64,000 nucleotides of DNA from positions 158,654 through 222,653 of the forward strand of contig NZ_LT984895.1 of the NCBI RefSeq assembly GCF_900258505.1, given 5' to 3'. The DNA comes from Brachybacterium timonense. Its GTDB lineage: Bacteria > Actinomycetota > Actinomycetes > Actinomycetales > Dermabacteraceae. The position numbers and the translations under genes are program-made. This document shows, in pieces, positions 21,655 through 36,894 of this stretch (its first letter is position 1; each line of letters begins with the position of its first letter). The notes beneath the pieces were generated by a model that was not told the origin of the DNA, did no database searches, and worked only from the letters and a program-made list of their open reading frames with translations.

Positions 21655-22779
21655 TCAGATCCGCATCGGCATGATCAGGTATTTGTACGAGCCGTCCGGG
21701 GTGCCCTCCAGGGAATCCTGGCCGCTCATCACCGACGGCTTGATCGAGTCGGTGAAGGTCAGGCGAGCGAACTCGGTGCCCAGTGCACCCAGGCCGTCGA
21801 GCAGGAAGCCGGAGTTGAAGCCGACCACCAGGTCCTCACCCTCCAGCTGTGCTTCGAGCACCTCGCTGGCCTGAGCGTCGTCGCCGGCGCCGGCCTCGAG
21901 AGCGACCTGCCCCTCGGTGAAGGACAGGCGCACCGGGGTGTTGCGTTCGGCCACGAGGGAGACGCGCTTGACGGCTTCGATCAGGGGGGCCGTGGCGATC
22001 ACGGCGGTGATCGGGGAGGAGTCCGGGAAGAGTCGACGCACAGGCGGGTAGTCACCGTCGACCAGGGTCGAGGTGGTCCGTCGGCCCCCGGACTCGAAGC
22101 CGACGAGCTTGGCGGCGGAGTCGTCGGCCAATGCGATGTCCACGCTGCCGCCGGTGGCCAGCGAGCGGGCGACCTCGTGCAGGGTGCGGGCACGCACGAG
22201 AGCGGTGAGCTCGGCGCCGGGGCTCGCAGGGTTCCAGCTCAGCTCGCGCATCGCCAGTCGGTAGCGGTCGGTCGCCATGAGCGTGACCTTCTCGCCCTCG
22301 ATCTCGACCTTCACCCCGGTGAGCAGCGGGAGGGTGTCATCCTTCGAGGCTGCGACCGTGACTTGGGAAATCGCTTCGGAGAAGACGTCGGCCGGAACAG
22401 AGCCAGCAACCGGTGGCATCGATGGCAGCTGCGGGTATTCCTCAACAGGCAGGGTGGCCAGGGCGAAGCGGGCACTGCCGCAGCGCAGCTGCAGCTTGGT
22501 GCCTTCGAGCGCAACGGAGACGTCTTTGTTCGGCAGGGCACGGACGATGTCGGAGAGCATGCGGCCCTGGACCAGCACCTCACCGCCTTCATCGACCTCA
22601 GCATCGAGGGTGATCTGCGCGCTGACCTCGTAATCGAAGGTCGACAGCTGCAGCTCTCCGCTGGTGTCCGCCACGATGCGCACACCCTGGAGGATTGGCA
22701 TCGCGGGGCGCACTGGAAGTGTGCGAGTGGCCCAGGTGACGGCGTCACCCAGGGCGCCGCGATCAAGGTGGAACTTCAC
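21655..22779 (-). CDS. dnaN: DNA polymerase III beta sliding clamp
   Basis: A 374-aa processivity clamp with three repeated domains, starting MKFHLDRGALGDAVTWA and ending with the usual hydrophobic C-terminus YKYLIMPMRI, close to the partner-binding pocket. KVTLMATDRYRLAMRELSW is the conserved domain-2 segment. A GGAGAGGCTCC leader precedes the ATG at 22779. It follows dnaA after an origin-like gap. Confidence 0.97.
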   Translation of the reverse strand: MKFHLDRGALGDAVTWATRTLPVRPAMPILQGVRIVADTSGELQLSTFDYEVSAQITLDAEVDEGGEVLVQGRMLSDIVRALPNKDVSVALEGTKLQLRCGSARFALATLPVEEYPQLPSMPPVAGSVPADVFSEAISQVTVAASKDDTLPLLTGVKVEIEGEKVTLMATDRYRLAMRELSWNPASPGAELTALVRARTLHEVARSLATGGSVDIALADDSAAKLVGFESGGRRTTSTLVDGDYPPVRRLFPDSSPITAVIATAPLIEAVKRVSLVAERNTPVRLSFTEGQVALEAGAGDDAQASEVLEAQLEGEDLVVGFNSGFLLDGLGALGTEFARLTFTDSIKPSVMSGQDSLEGTPDGSYKYLIMPMRI

Positions 22780-23200
22780 CGGAGCCTCTCCTTCACGTGC
22801 TCATGCATCGGAACGGATCACAGCGTATCGGCTTTCCAGCATCCGGGCGATACGTCGAGGGGCCCGCTCATCCCCTCCGTGATCCGTTTGTGCTCTGGGC
22901 ATGGTCTGCCGCTGCGCCGACGCACGCTCAGACCCCGGCCGCCCTCCACAACCCATGAGCTAGAAGAACAGACTTCCTCTTCTTCACAGCGGTGGACACA
23001 GTGGAGAACTGTCATCGTCCCTGGTCGCATCGCATGACCACCACGTGCACGCCTCGTGTATGACACGGCGTGCACTGTCCACGGACTGTGGGTGAGACCG
23101 TGTGCCACTGACGATTCGTGTCATTCGGCCATGCACATCGACTCCAGGGCCGATGCCATTGCGTCCCCATTCTCCACAGAGTTATCCACAATGGGGATGA
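22780..23200. other. dnaA-dnaN intergenic region, candidate oriC
   Basis: 421 bp without a gene, in the position of oriC in many actinobacteria. It contains a consensus DnaA box TTATCCACA (23182-23190) and weaker matches such as TGTCCACGG (23076-23084) and the complementary-type CTGTGGGTGA (23086-23095). No obvious AT-rich unwinding element is seen, so the assignment rests on position plus boxes. Confidence 0.55.
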
Positions 23201-24880
23201 TCAGGCCCGTGAGCTGGAGTTCTTGATGCGCGCTGTGAGCTCTGTGACTTGATTGAAGATCGCGCGACGCTCCTTCATGAGCTCACTGATCTTCTTGTTG
23301 GCGTGCATCACGGTGGTGTGGTCGCGACCCCCGAACTCCTCCCCGATACGGATCAGGGGCATGTCCGTCAGCTCGCGGCACAGGTACATGGCGATCTGTC
23401 GGGCGGAGACAAGACGCCGTGAGCGTCCGGTGCCGGTGATTTCGTCGACGTTGAGTCCGAAGTACGTCGCAGTCTGGGCGATGATCGTGCTCGCGGTGAT
23501 CTGGGCACCGTCATCATGGGCCAGCAGATCCTTCAGCACCGTCTGAGCGAGTGAGACATCCATCGGCTGCCGCGACAGCGAGTGCAGCGCCTGCACACGG
23601 ATCAGCGCGCCTTCGAGCTCTCGGATGTTCGTGGAGATGTGGCTGGCGATGTACTCCAGCACCTCGCGCGGCACCTCGCCGGTGTTCTCCTGCGCCACCT
23701 TCTTGCGCAGAATCGCGATGCGGGTCTCGAGATCCGGCGGCTGCACGTCTGTCATGAGCCCCATCTCGAAGCGAGATCGCATGCGGTCCTCGAACCCGCC
23801 CAGTTCCTTGGGTGGCAGATCGGAGGTGATGACGATCTGCTTGTCGGAGTTGTACAGCGTGTTGAACGTATGGAAGAACGCTTCCATCGTCTCTGGGGCG
23901 CGCTGCAGGAACTGGATGTCGTCGATCAACAGGATGTCGATGTCCCGGTAGCGGCGCTGGAACTCTTGGGCCTTGCCGAACTGACCGGACTGCACCGAGT
24001 TGATGAAGTCGTTTGTGAACTCCTCCGAGTTCACGTAGCGCACGACGATGTCGGGGTAGAGCGTCTGCGCGTAGTGCCCGACGGCATGCAGCAGATGAGT
24101 CTTGCCCAGTCCGGAGCCGCCGTAGATGAACAGCGGGTTGTATGCCTTGGCGGGGGTTTCCGCTACGGCCGACGCAGCGGCCTGAGCGAAGCGGTTGGAG
24201 GAACCGATCACGAACGTGTCGAAGGTGTACTTCGCATTCAGACGGGAATCTGTGCCGAGCGTGGACTCCCCGTCCTCACTCGAAGGGGCGGGGCGAGGAG
24301 CGGGCGTGGGTGACGGCGCTGAGAAGCCGCGCAGGGAGTCCTCCGTCTCGGGAACGGGCAGCTGCGGAGAGGGTTCCTCATCGGCCGACGGTCCGACGCC
24401 GAGCGGGCGGAACTGCTCTGGCAGGTCACGGGTGCGCGGGCTCGGTGCTGCGGAGTCCGCGTTTCGTGGGAGGGATCCTCGCGCTGCGGTGGTCCCCGTC
24501 GAACCATCCGGAGTGTGGACAGACGGGCCATGGTCATCCACAAGATCATCCACATTGTGTGCACGGCCGATCCCCGATGCCGAGGTCACAGGTGCAGAAG
24601 GCGATTCGTCCTCGAGCAGTGACTCATCCACCGTGACCGCCAAGCGCATCTCCGTCCCGGTGGCTTCGCTCAGAGCCTGCGTCAGCTGAGCGGCAATCCG
24701 GTGCTCAAACAGGTCTTTCGTCGAGGTTGACGGGGCTGCGAGCAGTGCGGTGTCCGCGACGACGGCCATCAGTCGAGAGAGCATGAGCAGCGCCATCACA
24801 CGCTGCGAGACGGTGTCGTCGCGCCGCAGGATCTGCAGGGTGCGGGACCAGATGACGTCGGGCTCGACGGCTTCTTCCAT
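23201..24880 (-). CDS. dnaA: Chromosomal replication initiator DnaA
   Basis: The AAA+ initiator, 559 aa from the ATG at 24880 ([18 protein letters not shown]); an upstream in-frame ATG at 24934 adds 18 basic residues and overlaps DnaA-box-like sites. Domain I is residues 1-100, followed by a long polar domain II (about 100-215). Domain III has Walker [14 protein letters not shown], Walker [11 protein letters not shown] and sensor [15 protein letters not shown]. Domain IV carries the DNA-binding signature [15 protein letters not shown]. It is divergent from rpmH. Confidence 0.97.
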
Positions 24881-25368
24881 GGATCTTCGTGCTCTCGGCC
24901 GGGGACGGGAGGAGTTGTCCACGTAGTTTTCCACATTATGTCCGGGGATGCGGGGCCTCGCGGGGCACGGCTACACGGTGTGACTCCAACACACAGCCAG
25001 ACCACACAGCCAGACCACACAGCCAGGCCCTGTACGCCGAGCACGTCAGCGTGCGTCGGGTGAGAATCCGACCACACCAGCCACTGAGCCGCTCACGATC
25101 CGTTGACCGCACGCAGGGGCACTCCTAGGATCGACCAGTCAGCCAGTGCGCCCTCTCCCGGGCTCTCACTGTCGGAACTGCATGGCCGGTCGCGGCATGC
25201 AGATCCGGCCGGGCCGTCGCTGTCGCGGCGCAGCAAGGGGATCGGGAGGGACGCCGATCGGAACGGCGTGCGCCGTGCGCCGCCCCGCAGCAGCGGGAGC
25301 GCCCGATCTCACCGGCGACGAGAAGCCACCGTGAGGGGCACACCCGTGCCCACGACCGAGGAGAACCG
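24881..25368. promoter_or_regulatory. dnaA-rpmH divergent regulatory region
   Basis: 488 bp between divergent dnaA and rpmH. DnaA-box-like TTGTCCACG (24915-24923) and TTTTCCACA (24927-24935) lie 12 bp apart just upstream of the dnaA start, where DnaA autoregulation is expected. A 13-bp unit ACACAGCCAGACC is repeated 2.8 times at 24991-25027. The rest shows nothing recognisable; the rpmH promoter must lie here. Confidence 0.5.
24991..25027. repeat. 13-bp tandem repeat
   Basis: ACACAGCCAGACC occurs twice in tandem (24991-25003, 25004-25016), then as a partial third copy to 25027. It lies between dnaA and rpmH; its role is unknown. Confidence 0.85.
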
Positions 25369-29718: not shown

Positions 29719-31413
29719 ATGACGCAGAAGCGCGGACTCGGACGCGGCCTGGGGGCCCTCATTCCCGGCGCGGGCGCCCCCGCGGGAAGCGAGCAGGAGC
29801 TGCGCACCCGCACCCATCCGCGCACTGAGCCGGAACCGGGTGAGAAGGGATCCAGCGCCCGGCCGGTGGATATGTTCTTCTCGGGCGATCCGGTGGAGCA
29901 CGACGAATCGGACGCCAGTGGCCGGCAGCGCCGATCGCGCCCGGATCTGGCCGGTGACATGGCCCGCGCCGCGGCAGCCCGGCGTGGCCGGGGGCGAGCC
30001 AGCACCTCCACTGCGTCGTCGTCGGCGACCAGCGACGACGCGAAGGCCAGCGCTGACGCAGAACCGTCCACGCCCACGAAGGCGTCATCGACAGCGTCAT
30101 CGGCGAAGAAGTCCTCGTCCACGAGCTCCACCGCCTCGAAGCGCTCCTCCTCGAAGGGAACACGTTCGTCGAAGGACGCGTCCGCTTCCACCCGCGCGAC
30201 GTCGACGAAGCGAGCCTCATCCAAGGCTACGGAGCCGAAGGAAACCACCTCGTCGAAGGACACGTCCGCTTCCCGGAGGTCGTCATCGTCGAAGCGGGGA
30301 TCGTCTCAGGGTGCTTCCGCGTCGCGCGGGACCTCGGCATCGTCGGGCGCCGCGTCGCCGAGAGACTCATCTGCGTCGGCATCGTCGGAGGCAACCCCGA
30401 CGGATTCACCGGTGGTGGATGTGGAACGTGTGGAGCCGACGCCCGTCACTGCCTCGAGGACGCCCGCGGTCGCGGAAGAATCAGCCGCGGCACGCGAGGA
30501 CGTCTCGACCTTGGACGCCCCGACAGATGACGCCTCGCAGCTGCACGAGCAGGAGAGCAGTGGTCTCGTGCAGGTGCCGGGGGCGGAGTTCGCGGAGATC
30601 CCGATCCAGGAGATTCGAGAGAACCCGCGCAACCCCCGCACCATGTTCGATGATGACGAACTCGATGAGCTCGCCTTCTCCCTGCGGGAAGTCGGTGTGC
30701 TCCAGCCCGTGGTGGTTCGACCGATCACCGCGACCGCCAACGGGGAATCTTTCGAACTCGTCATGGGTGAGCGTCGCTGGCGAGCAGCGCAGCGTGCTGG
30801 TCTGCGCAGCATTCCGGCGATCATTCGTGAAACCAGCGACGATGACCTTCTCCGTGATGCCCTCCTGGAGAACCTGCACCGTTCGCAGCTGAACCCCCTT
30901 GAAGAAGCCGCCGCCTACCAGCAGCTGCTGGATGACTTCGGGTGCACGCAGGATGAGCTGGCCGACAGGATCGGCCGCTCACGGCCGCAGATCACCAACA
31001 CCCTGCGTCTGATGCGCTTGCCCGCGCTCGTACAGAGGCGCCTGGCCAGCGGCGCGTTGACGGCTGGTCACGCACGTGCGCTCCTTGCGCTCGACGACGT
31101 GACGCTTATGGAGGAGCTCGCCCAGCGCATTGTGGCGGAAGGGCTTTCTGTTCGGGCGGTGGAGCGACTCGTCTCCCGCGGCACCCAGCCCGCGACATCC
31201 CGTACACCGCGGCGAAGCACCTATGACCCGCACGTCGTTGACATCACGAGCCGACTATCCAAGAGCCTCGAGGCTCCGGTCCGCATCGATGTGGGCAAGC
31301 GCAAGGGACGCATCACGCTCGAATTCACGTCGATTGAGGACCTGGAGCGTTTGGTCGAGCGCATCGGTCTAGATCTGGATGACCTGACCGGCGTGTCCGA
31401 CCCAGCGGACTGA
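29719..31413 (+). CDS. parB: Chromosome partitioning protein ParB with a long low-complexity linker
   Basis: A 564-aa CTPase/centromere-binding protein. The ATG at 29719 gives the conserved ParA-stimulating N-terminus MTQKRGLGRGLGALIPGAG; GGAAGG lies 9 nt upstream. After PVDMFFSG (50-56), about residues 65-280 are Ser/Ala/Lys/Thr/Arg-rich low complexity. The ParB/Srx-like CTP domain starts near 285 (IPIQEIRENPRNPR) and includes GERRWRAAQ at 350-358. Then come the HTH (FGCTQDELADRIGRSRPQIT) and the C-terminal dimerisation domain. The linker makes it about 200 residues longer than typical ParB. An array of parS-like sites follows directly. Confidence 0.95.
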   Translation: MTQKRGLGRGLGALIPGAGAPAGSEQELRTRTHPRTEPEPGEKGSSARPVDMFFSGDPVEHDESDASGRQRRSRPDLAGDMARAAAARRGRGRASTSTASSSATSDDAKASADAEPSTPTKASSTASSAKKSSSTSSTASKRSSSKGTRSSKDASASTRATSTKRASSKATEPKETTSSKDTSASRRSSSSKRGSSQGASASRGTSASSGAASPRDSSASASSEATPTDSPVVDVERVEPTPVTASRTPAVAEESAAAREDVSTLDAPTDDASQLHEQESSGLVQVPGAEFAEIPIQEIRENPRNPRTMFDDDELDELAFSLREVGVLQPVVVRPITATANGESFELVMGERRWRAAQRAGLRSIPAIIRETSDDDLLRDALLENLHRSQLNPLEEAAAYQQLLDDFGCTQDELADRIGRSRPQITNTLRLMRLPALVQRRLASGALTAGHARALLALDDVTLMEELAQRIVAEGLSVRAVERLVSRGTQPATSRTPRRSTYDPHVVDITSRLSKSLEAPVRIDVGKRKGRITLEFTSIEDLERLVERIGLDLDDLTGVSDPAD

Positions 31414-32226
31414 CGAGGGCCGACGGGACGGATGCCAGTTGAGCACGGACATGAGGGCCCGTGATCCACGCTGGCGTGGACCATTAACGCTGACAGAGCC
31501 ACTGAGCGATGGCTGTCCTCCTGTTCGACCTTCTCCCGGTCAATGGCCATCTGATGAACGCTGATGCGGGCCACCGAGCGACGGCTGGCTTCTGGCGACA
31601 CCGTTGCCACAGTGGATTTGACTGCGATCGCCGCGGTCGAGTGTGTGGCAAGCGCAGTGGACCGAATCGACCTTCCCCGGTGCTGACGCCGGGCCCGGAC
31701 GTGTCCCGATGCATGCCATCGTCGGGGTGCTCTCCGTGGTGGTTGTCGACCTCGGCCGGCTTCCTCTCCGTCCGCAGACCCGATGTCGCGATCATGGCAA
31801 TCGTGTGCGCTACCGGCTTGTCGCCTGCACGTGTCGCGATGGATAGGGAGCAGCGGTATGGACGTCCCGGGTACCTAGATCGACGGTCCGAGAACCCCGG
31901 CGCGAACGACGGTGATGTCTCGGGCGCTTCCGCTGGGCATAAACGTGGGCGTGGTTCCGCGCCATCCTCACTGAGACCACATACTAGACAATAGGCTAGA
32001 AAAAGTGACGGATAGCACCACTTTGCGAGATGGGGAGTTCCCGGTGAGGAGCTCAACGTGGGCCAGTCGGTAGTGCGGCGCTGACCAGTACCGCAGTGCC
32101 ACGAGGATGCGACGGCCTGGCCGGAGACGTGCCCCGATATCTGAGAGCCGGCGTTGACACCATTATGAGCAGCACCATCGCGGGCTGAGATGGGCATAAA
32201 GCGAGTTGTCGTGCCGTGGTGTTCCT

Positions 32227-34521
32227 GTTACACGTGAAACATCCGTGCGCTACCGCTACGCACGGTTAGAGCCATCCGCGACAACGCCCGCGCGATCGGC
32301 AGCCCGCGTCACGCACTCGCACGACGTTTCACATGAAACACGGGGAACGCCGCCCCGACACGTTCGATTCTTCCAGTCTGAATCATCGCGGTGCTCGGCC
32401 CTCGTCTCTCCGTGGCGGCTTATGTCGAGACGGGTTGCACGTGAAACGCGGGTTCAGGATGGGCGGGGAGGAGCTCCTACCGGGGTGAGATCGGGTATAT
32501 CCCCGTACCCCGCCAACCGGTTGGCTGGATGTGTGCAGAGAGGTGTCGGCACAGGCCGGGATTTCTACCGTGCTGTTGCCTCGGTCAAAAAGTGAGTATG
32601 TGCGTGCGTCATGGAAACCCAGTCCCCTCAATCGGAGCCAGGTGTTGCACCCGGAGACGCCAGCGGGATCAGCTGAAGGGGACGGCATGCCGCACAGCTA
32701 CCTTGCCCTAACGCTACTGTGATGGCCCGATTGCGGGTCAGGCTGCGCCTACACGCTTTCGATCGAGTGATGTTGCGAATCACGGCTTCGGTCGTTTCAC
32801 GTGGAACGGCTTGGCGATAAGGGGAGGGCTCAGGCTGTGGTCACGCCCGGAAGCTTTGCGCTTGTTCTCGATCCGAGTAACGGATACGGAGACTCCGAGC
32901 CCCACAGGTAGACGCTCGCTCGCGGACAGCATACCCGCGAGGGCACTGCCATCGGCGGATGATAGCGAAGCGACGTGCGGCAGGCCTTATCACGCGGGTC
33001 GGTACTCGAGTAGTACGACGACGTGGCGAGAAGGTGAGTGAGTATGAACCTCCCACATTGCTCGGCTGCGGTGTTTCACGTGCAACGCGGGGTGCGTGGT
33101 CGCGCTGCGCTGGGCAGGATCGAAAAGGACTGAATGCGTACACGAAGCAGCGTCGCTGTGCGATCCAAGGACATCGACGTACTCATCTCCCCAAGCAATC
33201 AGCCCAATAGCTACGAACCCCCGGCGGTGAGCTTGCGGTCAGTGCGTATGAAACAAGCATCCGACCCGAGGTACGCGCACCTCCCGGGATGTGGTTGTAT
33301 AGCGGACGCGTTGCACGTGAAACCTTGAGCCCGTTCGTCACGACCATCGCGTCCTATGCACACGCGGCGAAGGCAGCGGAGGCTCACGGTGGTGGGAAGC
33401 CATAGCGCAGTGCACACGACACATTCCCGCTCCAAGGACACGGCGTCGCTTTTCGCCAGAGTGGGGAGAGTGGTACTCGCTCTCCCGGGCGTATATGCCA
33501 TGTGCCAGTCGTACCCAACGCTGCGTCACCACGGAGCGCCGCCTCGCGTGTCACATGAGGTTTCCCGTGAAACAGAGAAGCAGAAGCACAGGCCCCCGAC
33601 CCCGGGTACTGACGTGGTCCCGGGGCTCTGTCGCTCCCTGTGCAGTAAAGGGTGCGGCGACACCATCGTGGTGCATGGTAACGACGTACATCCTCCCCTT
33701 GTCTGATTGGTCCGGCTCGCCGGATCCTCGATGCCGGCTGTACAGCAGCAAAGAATCGTCGACGGCAGTTTCGTCGATGAGCGCCCAAGGCGGCAGGTGA
33801 GTTCTGCCCCTCGTTACACGTGCAACACCTACGGCAGTTGTTCGCTATTGGGCGGGTACCTCAACGAAGACCCAGTGCGGGGGTAAGCTCTGCCCGCGTT
33901 ACACGTGAAACACCTACGGTTGTTGTCCGCTCTTTCTGCCGATGTCGACCTGCCTGCAGCGAAGGTGTTGCACGTGAAACCCCGCCGCACTCCTTTGGCA
34001 GAGTGGAGTCGTCAGGTGTTGTGGGCGCCTACTCGGAATCGACCGGAGAATCGTCGGCAGTTGCCGCTCCTGCCATGCCCGCTAGACACCGGGAGCGACA
34101 GGGATTCAGTAGAGGCCGGGGCATGAATGTGGGGTGAACAGAGGCTTGCGATCGTGGACATCGTGACGGCGAAGGTCTGATCGCGGACCAGTTGTTCCGG
34201 TGCATCAGGCTGAGCTCTCCCATCCCGGCGGCCTGGGAGGTGACCGTCATGATCGGCATACCCAGTCGAGGAGACGGAGCACAGTCCCCCAGTGGAGCTC
34301 GTACCAGCTAGCGAATTCGCCAGGGACTTCGTCCGTGTTCTCTGCGAAGAGGAGCGAGACGCACAGGCAATCACGTACCGCATGGGTCATGATTCACGGG
34401 AAACGTCGAACGCCGGATCGGGTACACGTGACCGATGGGAAGAATCTGATGTGAGTCCGGGGGTGCGTGATCGTCGGCAGCACGTGCGGGTAGACCGTCG
34501 GCATCAGGGTTCACGGGAAAC
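32227..34521. other. Array of twelve parS-like centromere sites
   Basis: Fourteen-bp matches to the parS core GTTTCACGTGAAAC start at 32227, 32326, 32434, 32794, 33073, 33310, 33560, 33813, 33898, 33967, 34391 and 34508. Nine have one mismatch and three (33813, 34391, 34508) have two; none is perfect. Most changes fall at position 4 or its partner (for example GTTGCACGTGAAAC, GTTACACGTGAAAC), and the last two carry CACGGG instead of CACGTG. The sites lie immediately downstream of parB, in non-coding DNA, and are probable ParB nucleation sites. Confidence 0.85.
33796..33931. repeat. Direct duplication of a parS-containing segment
   Basis: About 50 bp at 33796-33846 (GGTGAGTTCTGCCCC, the parS-like site, then ACACCTACGGCAGTTG) recurs with a few changes at 33882-33931, with a period of about 85 bp. 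It suggests the array grew partly by local duplication. Confidence 0.75.
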
Positions 34522-34542
34522 GTGCTCCAGTGGAGTGCACAG

Positions 34543-34786
34543 TGTGGGTAAGTCTGTGGACACGTGCAACCGTGAGGTTGCCTGACTGCAGGGAACGTGG
34601 GGATTGTCGCTCTGGGAACCATGGGTGCGGTACTGACCGCGTGACCAGCAGATATGACTATCGCTGCAGGTCAGAGCCATTTGTACGATGCGCGTGGCGC
34701 CATGTAGCTTGCGCGCCCTGTCCACAGTCGATTGTGGATAACGTTGTGGATGGAGTGCGCTTTATGCGTGCACAACATTGTGGATA
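34543..34786. other. Cluster of DnaA-box-like sites
   Basis: TTGTGGATAA (34732-34741, perfect complement of TTATCCACAA), TTGTGGATG (34744-34752) and TTGTGGATA (34778-34786) share orientation. Weaker matches TGTGGGTAA (about 34544-34552) and TGTCCACAG (34719-34727) are nearby. This is a denser group than in the dnaA-dnaN gap; it may be part of a bipartite origin or a DnaA-titration site. Confidence 0.55.
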
Positions 34787-34828
34787 CACGGTGCACAGTT
34801 TCATGTTCGCACGTCACTGCGGAGCGTC

Positions 34829-35464
34829 TCACCGATTTGACACAGTGGATGCCTCGCCGGGATCGAGGTGAGGCTGCCAGAGATCATGTTCGAGCTCGTA
34901 CTTCGGCCGCGCCCCCACCCGTCGGTCTGTGATGGTCCATTCCAAGCTTGCTGGAAGTTCACCACAGATGCCGCGCAGCACCTCGGCTGCATGATGAAAC
35001 GTGGGAGTCGTAGGCGTCGTGGTGGCATCCCCATGGGCACCCGCATGCGGGGACTCATCGCCAGTTGAGGTCACAGCGCCTGCCCTCCCCGCATACGTGA
35101 CTGCCTTGACGACGAGCCATGTCGGTACCTCGGTCACGCCAAGAGCAGCGAGAGCATCCGCGCCGAGGTCGTCGAGAAGCGCGCTACGGACCAACGGCGC
35201 ATCGGCACTGTGCCGGCGCTGCAGTTCGGCGAGCACCGTACGAGATGGCCGCGCCGGGGCGCTCCACGGCGGTGCCGCGAGTAGTAGCCACACAGGAGCA
35301 GAGCCAGAGCCGTCGGCGTGAAACTCTGACGGGTTGTGGGAGGGGCCAACCGGTGTGGGTGACTGCCCGGCGAGGGCCGATGATTCGTCCGCAACCGGAG
35401 CCGGAGTTCCAGGCGCAGTCTCAACCGGGTGATCCGAGGGAACACCCCGCTGGTCAGGCGACAC
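34829..35464 (-). CDS. Thioredoxin-fold protein lacking the active-site cysteines
   Basis: A 211-aa protein in the trxA position beside trxB. A disordered about 50-residue N-terminus leads to a thioredoxin-like core: WLLLAAPPWSAPARPSRTVLAEL aligns with the usual W-A-P-W-C-G-P-C-R segment, and ALAALGVTEVPTWLVV with the cis-Pro segment. Both catalytic Cys are replaced (Ser and Arg in WSAPAR), so it cannot be a redox thioredoxin. It may be a structural or binding paralogue. The only Cys is in the C-terminal ICGELPASLEW region. Confidence 0.65.
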   Translation of the reverse strand: MSPDQRGVPSDHPVETAPGTPAPVADESSALAGQSPTPVGPSHNPSEFHADGSGSAPVWLLLAAPPWSAPARPSRTVLAELQRRHSADAPLVRSALLDDLGADALAALGVTEVPTWLVVKAVTYAGRAGAVTSTGDESPHAGAHGDATTTPTTPTFHHAAEVLRGICGELPASLEWTITDRRVGARPKYELEHDLWQPHLDPGEASTVSNR

Positions 35465-35562: not shown

Positions 35563-36654
35563 TCATGCACGGTCCGCAGCACTGGCATCGGCGTCGGACG
35601 CTGCATCCTGGGCCGATTCTTCGGTGGTGATACCCGCGCGCTGATCCGCGAGCCAGCGTTCCGCATCGAGCGCCGCCTGGCACCCGCTCCCGGCAGCAGT
35701 GATGGCCTGACGGTACGTGTGGTCCACCACGTCACCGGCGGCGAAGATGCCAGGCACAGATGTGTACGTGGAGCGCCCCCGCGTCAGGATGTAGCCCTGA
35801 TCATCACAATCGAGAGCTCCGCGGAAAAGCTCGGAACGCGGCACATGCCCGATCGCCTCGAACACGGCGGACGTCGGCAACTCTCGCTGTTCGCCCGTGA
35901 CCGTGTCGCGCAGCGTCACGGACTCCACCTTCTCCTCGCCGTTGATGCTCACGACCTCGGCGTTCCACGCGAAGTCGAGCTTCGGATCCGCTTCTGCCCG
36001 TCGGGCCATGATCCTCGAGGCTCGCAGCTGGTCGCGGCGATGCACCAGGGTCACGCCGGTGGCGTAACGCGTCAGGAAGGTGGCTTCCTCCACGGCGGAA
36101 TCCCCGCCGCCCACCACCACGATCGGCTCATCCTTGAAGAAGAACCCGTCGCAGGTAGCGCACCAGGACACGCCCTTGCCGGACAGACGCTCCTCTCCCT
36201 CCACGCCGAGCTTCCGATACGCCGAGCCGGTGGCGATGATGAGCGCTCGCGCCCGATGCACAGTGCCGTCCTCAAGCGTGACAGTCTTCAGCTCGCCCTC
36301 GAGGTCCACTGTCACGGCGTCCTCAAACAGCACCTCGGCGCCGAAACGTTCTGCCTGCTCCTGCATGGTGGTCATCAGGTCAGGGCCCTGGATCCCGGCC
36401 GCGAATCCGGGGAAGTTCTCCACCTCGGTGGTGGTCATGAGAGCGCCGCCCGCATCCAGTGCACCAGCGATCACCAGTGGTGCCATCTCGGCGCGGGCCG
36501 CGTAGATCGCGGCGGTGTATCCGGCGGGGCCCGAACCAATGATCACGATGTCGTGGATCGGGGCGTCCACGGCGGACGCTGCTTCGGGTGCGGGCTGGTC
36601 AGCGGCCGACGGTGCTGAGCCGAGGATGTTCAGGGCCTGAATCGGCTGAGACAT
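35563..36654 (-). CDS. trxB: Thioredoxin-disulfide reductase
   Basis: A 363-aa FAD/NADPH enzyme that reduces thioredoxin. The ATG at 36654 ([12 protein letters not shown]) has GAAGGAA upstream; earlier in-frame codons are Pro/Ser-rich, low-complexity and excluded. FAD loop [16 protein letters not shown], redox centre [15 protein letters not shown] loop [16 protein letters not shown] and FAD motif [10 protein letters not shown] are intact. About 40 N-terminal and 25 C-terminal residues are extra to the family core. Its partner thioredoxin is not obvious here, since the adjacent gene lacks the active-site Cys. Confidence 0.96.
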
Positions 36655-36894
36655 GGGATTCCTTCCATGAGGCGAAGCGGTGAGTGGGGTGGGGCAGAGA
36701 AGAGCTTGCGTGGAGCAAAGCTGAGGTTGGCTGAGGCAGCGACGAGGCAGCGTGGTGCAGAGCCGAGGTTGGGCGGGTCGGGAAGAGGTAGCGCGGCACT
36801 GGCCAGAGGGTGCACTGTCCAGACCAGCGCCCTGCCCGGTCGAGGGAACGGCAGCAGGAGAAGGCGCACGGGCCATGAGGCATGATCACACAGA
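36655..36894. repeat. Intergenic region with a degenerate direct repeat
   Basis: 240 bp upstream of trxB. A 23-bp unit beginning GCGTGGAGCAAAGCTGAGG at 36708 recurs at 36750 with three changes. No gene is supported. Confidence 0.5.

Follow-up and report, generated by a model that had tools for sequence, protein, structure and literature searches.

A compact cluster of DnaA boxes lies beside the parS sites of Brachybacterium timonense, and the question that it raises is whether it is a replication origin, part of one, a site that regulates initiation, or an accident. We have analyzed this cluster in a window of 64,000 nucleotides and in related genomes. The window reads dnaN, dnaA, yidC, jag, gidB, parA, parB, a non-coding stretch carrying parS sites, and a convergent trxB-like gene; this gene set is the usual actinobacterial origin neighbourhood. 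The ParB core of the window is 83-92% identical to those of the named Dermabacteraceae loci. The array sits in the parB-trxB interval, in which no genes were called; it borders the parS centromere on the side away from the origin and is about 11-12 kb from the dnaA-dnaN gap. A role as promoter of parB or trxB was ruled out, since both genes converge on the interval. A Pfam search of the ORFs within and beside this interval gave no clear domain. Coordinates are collected in Table 1.

Table 1. Features of the window around the DnaA-box array, followed by the recurrent box-pair locus of four genomes. Spacings are in bp.
Feature	Position	Strand	Remarks
dnaN	21655..22779	-	Pfam DNA_pol3_beta domains
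dnaA-dnaN gap, probable oriC	22780..23200		phased boxes (fixed spacings 12, 9, 218) and long conserved block, 27 genomes
dnaA	23201..24934	-	Pfam Bac_DnaA, E 9.7e-68
parB	29719..31413	+	start predicted at MTQKRG
parS array, compact centromere	32226..34405		11 sites with <=3 mismatches (0.06 expected)
Left module, TGCACAGTGTG	34537..34563	+	overlaps two weak DnaA boxes
Two weak left-module boxes	34543-34551, 34555-34563	both -	12 bp apart
TGCAGGTCA motif	34665..34673	+	52 bp left of first convergent box core
Box 1, CTGTCCACA	34718..34726	+	faces box 2
Box 2, perfect TTATCCACA (TTGTGGATAA with one more base)	34732-34741 / 34733..34741	-	
Box 3, CCATCCACA (TTGTGGATG)	34744-34752 / 34745..34753	-	12 bp from box 2
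Box 4, TTGTGCACG	34767..34775	-	degenerate in window species; TGTGGA core in most relatives
Box 5, GTATCCACA (TTGTGGATA)	34778-34786 / 34779..34787	-	
GCACGTCA motif	34809..34816	+	right of array; 17/29 array regions, 0.024 expected
TTGACA, conserved	34837..34842	+	20/29 array regions, 0.03 expected
trxB-like gene	35563..36876	-	convergent to parB; Pfam Pyr_redox_2, E 2e-49
Recurrent pair locus, G009	C8:626366/626743		
Recurrent pair locus, G010	C1:453140/453517		
Recurrent pair locus, G011	C12:67179/67543		
Recurrent pair locus, G003	C156:14336/14673		

The initial annotation had described three co-oriented boxes within 55 bp, accompanied by weaker ones, about 10 kb from dnaA and adjoining the parS sites. 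All of this is borne out: boxes 2, 3 and 5 are the three in question, the weaker ones begin at 34543 (-), 34555 (-) and 34718 (+), dnaA comes to within 9.6 kb (at 24934), and the nearest parS-like site (34390-34405) is about 140 bp away. The further claim that boxes are denser here than in the dnaA-dnaN gap holds for the cores of this species (5 in 244 bp vs 3 in 425 bp) but understates the gap, which also has several weaker boxes and a long block conserved throughout the genus.

Four or more TCCACA cores per 75 bp were seen in none of 1000 Markov-simulated windows, and the three core pairs at 12-bp spacing compare with 0.003 expected. The window contains only two copies of the motif TTATNCACA, of which one is in the dnaA-dnaN gap and the other in the array (0.15 expected). 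In the window's genome a 12-spaced pair is present only at oriC, inside dnaA and at the array, and among nine neighbourhoods of at least 200 kb the array is the densest box cluster (for G018, by the 120-bp count). The pair inside the dnaA coding sequence lies at 24534-24554 of the window, and relatives have similar intra-dnaA clusters. A chance origin was rejected on the strength of the Markov simulations and the conserved spacing. That the array is either a chance cluster or a decaying relic is hardly credible: box 4 is indeed degenerate in the window species, but the spacing is fixed over more than 20 genomes and control matches were 0.

Between parB and trxB, 5 to 14 TCCACA cores were counted in every one of 25 Dermabacteraceae sequences (24 loci and the window, both genes being present; loci without one of the genes were left unscored). 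In other lineages 20 loci could be scored; each has 0 to 2 cores, and 15 have no box of the YYNTCCACA type. A cluster is likewise present between parB and trxB in Dermabacter (L022), Helcobacillus (L012) and two further Dermabacteraceae loci (L019, L020), though with spacings that differ. The geometry in Brachybacterium is box+ 15 box- 12 box- 22 box- 12 box- 12 box-. Among 29 genomes, same-strand cores are most commonly spaced by 12 bp (58 cases), with 22 bp in 21 cases, and the convergent core spacing is 12 bp in 23. Box 1 was not found in six genomes (G016, G025, G029, L009, L017, L018), all of which keep the tandem boxes. The strict 12/22 triple was found in 23 of the 38 Brachybacterium genomes, always as a single copy (reversed-control matches, 0). 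For 19 of these 23 parB was placed, and there the triple and the parB match are 3-4 kb apart; the remaining four are without placement. Across the order, the triple was found in 8 of 16 Brachybacterium genomes and in none of the 4 from other Dermabacteraceae; outside the family, 3 of 228 genomes have it. The window species is without it because box 4 is degenerate. Judged by these comparisons, the array is a real, conserved and lineage-specific feature, restricted to the family. Four genomes share another locus with two DnaA-box pairs of 12-bp spacing, the pairs being about 340-380 bp from each other (Table 1). In G009 and G010 this locus is about 170-185 kb away from parB; it is possibly a further conserved, putative DnaA site.

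The array is accompanied by short motifs of its own. The genus consensus of the left module is TGCACAgTGTGcgtaAc..TGTGGAcAAc, and TGCACA.TGTG was found in 22 of 29 array regions (0.005 expected). The motif GCAGGTCA is present in 20 of 29 array regions and also in 16 of 27 dnaA-dnaN gaps, with 0.078 expected per 600 bp; in most species having it, it is at -51 or -52, about 52 bp left of the array.

The proposal that the array is the real origin is not supported, as the dnaA-dnaN gap has the ancestral position, a longer conserved block and phased boxes of its own. On the basis of this conservation and of established knowledge of actinobacterial origins, the gap is probably oriC. The published BUS/DnaA-trio rule gave no conserved match at the array or in the gap; most dnaA-dnaN gaps do not satisfy the BUS rule either, and hence its failure at the array is not diagnostic. 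GC skew, a check that the initial annotation had suggested, was taken in 10-kb bins and also at fourfold sites, and is weak and driven by gene strand. An antisymmetric 5-mer classifier reached a held-out accuracy of 57% and likewise follows gene strand. In G000 and in eight more Brachybacterium genomes, the octamer YGGGGGAG is strongly polarised by chromosome arm (304 vs 32), independently of gene strand; it resembles a KOPS/AIMS motif. Its density is near background between about -10 and +26 kb relative to the dnaA-dnaN gap. The sign change falls right of parB, at background density and with a resolution coarser than 10 kb, and cannot place the origin to 10 kb because the octamer is at background near the origin. 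A constant-polarity likelihood for the octamer puts the switch right of both candidates, a result not to be over-read; the octamer, skew and k-mer tests all have a resolution too coarse for the 12 kb between the candidates.

We consider it unlikely that the array belongs to a bipartite origin, in which its DnaA would contact DnaA at the dnaA-dnaN gap, or is itself a relocated origin. The GCAGGTCA motif and the 12-bp phasing common to both loci are consistent with such a role, as are the octamer polarity that flips right of parB and the fourfold-site skew of the yidC-parB genes (about six gene families), which is nearer the lagging value. However, no conserved AT-rich tract was found at the array, neither octamer nor skew separates the candidates, and in the bipartite origins known so far the two parts lie on either side of dnaA (PMC5295017), whereas here they are 11 kb apart. 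A DARS-like site, where head-to-head and tandem boxes would assemble ADP-DnaA, release ADP and raise active DnaA, is in our estimate unlikely. It is a serious rival by analogy because the first three array boxes come near the DARS core: DARS1 and DARS2 of E. coli both read box+ 14 box- 12 box-, the array opens box+ 15 box- 12 box-, and box 1 of the array has the orientation opposite to its neighbours that for box I, relative to II and III, is a defining feature of DARS (PMC5742627). Against this, the first spacing is off by 1 bp, six genomes keep the tandem boxes without box 1, and Actinomycetes often have the 12/12 convergent-plus-tandem layout immediately upstream of dnaA, so that this layout is not diagnostic. 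A search for TCCACA-N3to8-TGTGGA-N6-TGTGGA matched 62 of 394 Actinomycetes genomes (control matches, 1), for the most part with 12/12 spacing, and 26 of 28 inspected loci outside Brachybacterium adjoin dnaA on its rpmH/yidC side. Throughout the class, dnaA is repeatedly preceded by the form TCCACA-N3-TGTGGA-N6-TGTGGA (L232-L261, other Actinomycetes). No actinobacterial DARS surfaced in a limited literature search.

The boxes, their phasing, their constancy in the genus, their restriction to the family and their place beside the centromere are read directly from the sequence. What they suggest to us is a DnaA-binding locus outside the origin, whose most probable role is to regulate re-initiation negatively from a site near the origin, a reading to which we give a little less than even weight. 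DnaA would bind the phased boxes cooperatively. The array would be duplicated early after initiation, in the ParB-organised origin domain, and could act there as an early-duplicating sink or inactivation platform; by lowering free active DnaA it would prevent premature re-initiation. A negative role appears the most likely because of this early duplication and this location. The core counts across the family, the fixed spacing, the single triple per genome and the convergent, non-coding position all support a regulator, although the convergent box 1 resembles the DARS core and the motif common with oriC would also fit part of an origin. Lone clusters outside oriC have little effect in B. subtilis, which counts against a negative regulator. 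Among the roles offered by the initial annotation, that of a putative titration site coupling initiation to segregation fits placement, conservation and precedents best. To our knowledge, the means by which high-GC Gram-positives stop re-initiation are poorly known.

In the 20-kb loci of Dermabacteraceae every parS site (<=3 mismatches) is inside the parB-trxB gap, with 8-18 per locus. In other families most parS sites of the locus are outside this gap, L023, L032 and L044 being among the exceptions. A second, smaller set of DnaA boxes lies between parB and the first parS in L002, L003, L012, L014 and others, and in many species the centromere may thus be flanked by DnaA boxes on both sides; no TCCACA cores were found between parB and the first parS of the window. 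Contact of array-bound DnaA with ParA/ParB at parS could time segregation rather than initiation. That the array adjoins the region's one parS cluster throughout the family would suit this idea, and DnaA is a target of ParA (Soj) in B. subtilis (PMC5295017), but the case for it is one of adjacency and we think it quite improbable. A broader version, that the phased array and parS form one family-specific element by which DnaA activity is coupled to ParABS segregation, a DARS-like core possibly serving as the link, is rather unlikely in our judgement; we know of no actinobacterium with such a single coupling element. Being compact, constant in the genus and next to a single-locus centromere, the array offers a small target for deletion, with which one can ask if DnaA sinks, DARS-like reactivation or direct coupling of replication to segregation are used by actinobacteria.

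The array can be compared with several known systems. With actinobacterial oriC it shares 12-bp tandem boxes and the GCAGGTCA motif, but it lies elsewhere and has shorter conserved elements and no conserved AT-rich tract. Like the DARS1/DARS2 core of E. coli, it has one convergent box followed by two tandem boxes 12 bp apart; it differs in its first spacing of 15, in up to three more tandem boxes and in a box 1 that is not universal. E. coli datA is likewise a non-coding DnaA-box cluster outside oriC, but its box layout is unlike that of the array, and datA works via an IHF site at a set spacing to its boxes (PMC4585315). In Streptomyces coelicolor and Bacillus subtilis, DnaA-box clusters near oriC are reported to repress untimely initiation (PMC4585315, PMC5295017); these too are boxes outside but near oriC in Gram-positives, the Streptomyces clusters being likened to the array by description and not by sequence. 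The array is non-random, non-coding and outside oriC, and on its sequence it is best filed among the extra-origin DnaA-box clusters, as a variant in which, unlike those of S. coelicolor and B. subtilis, one phased, genus-constant array with its own flanking motifs stands beside a compact parS centromere.
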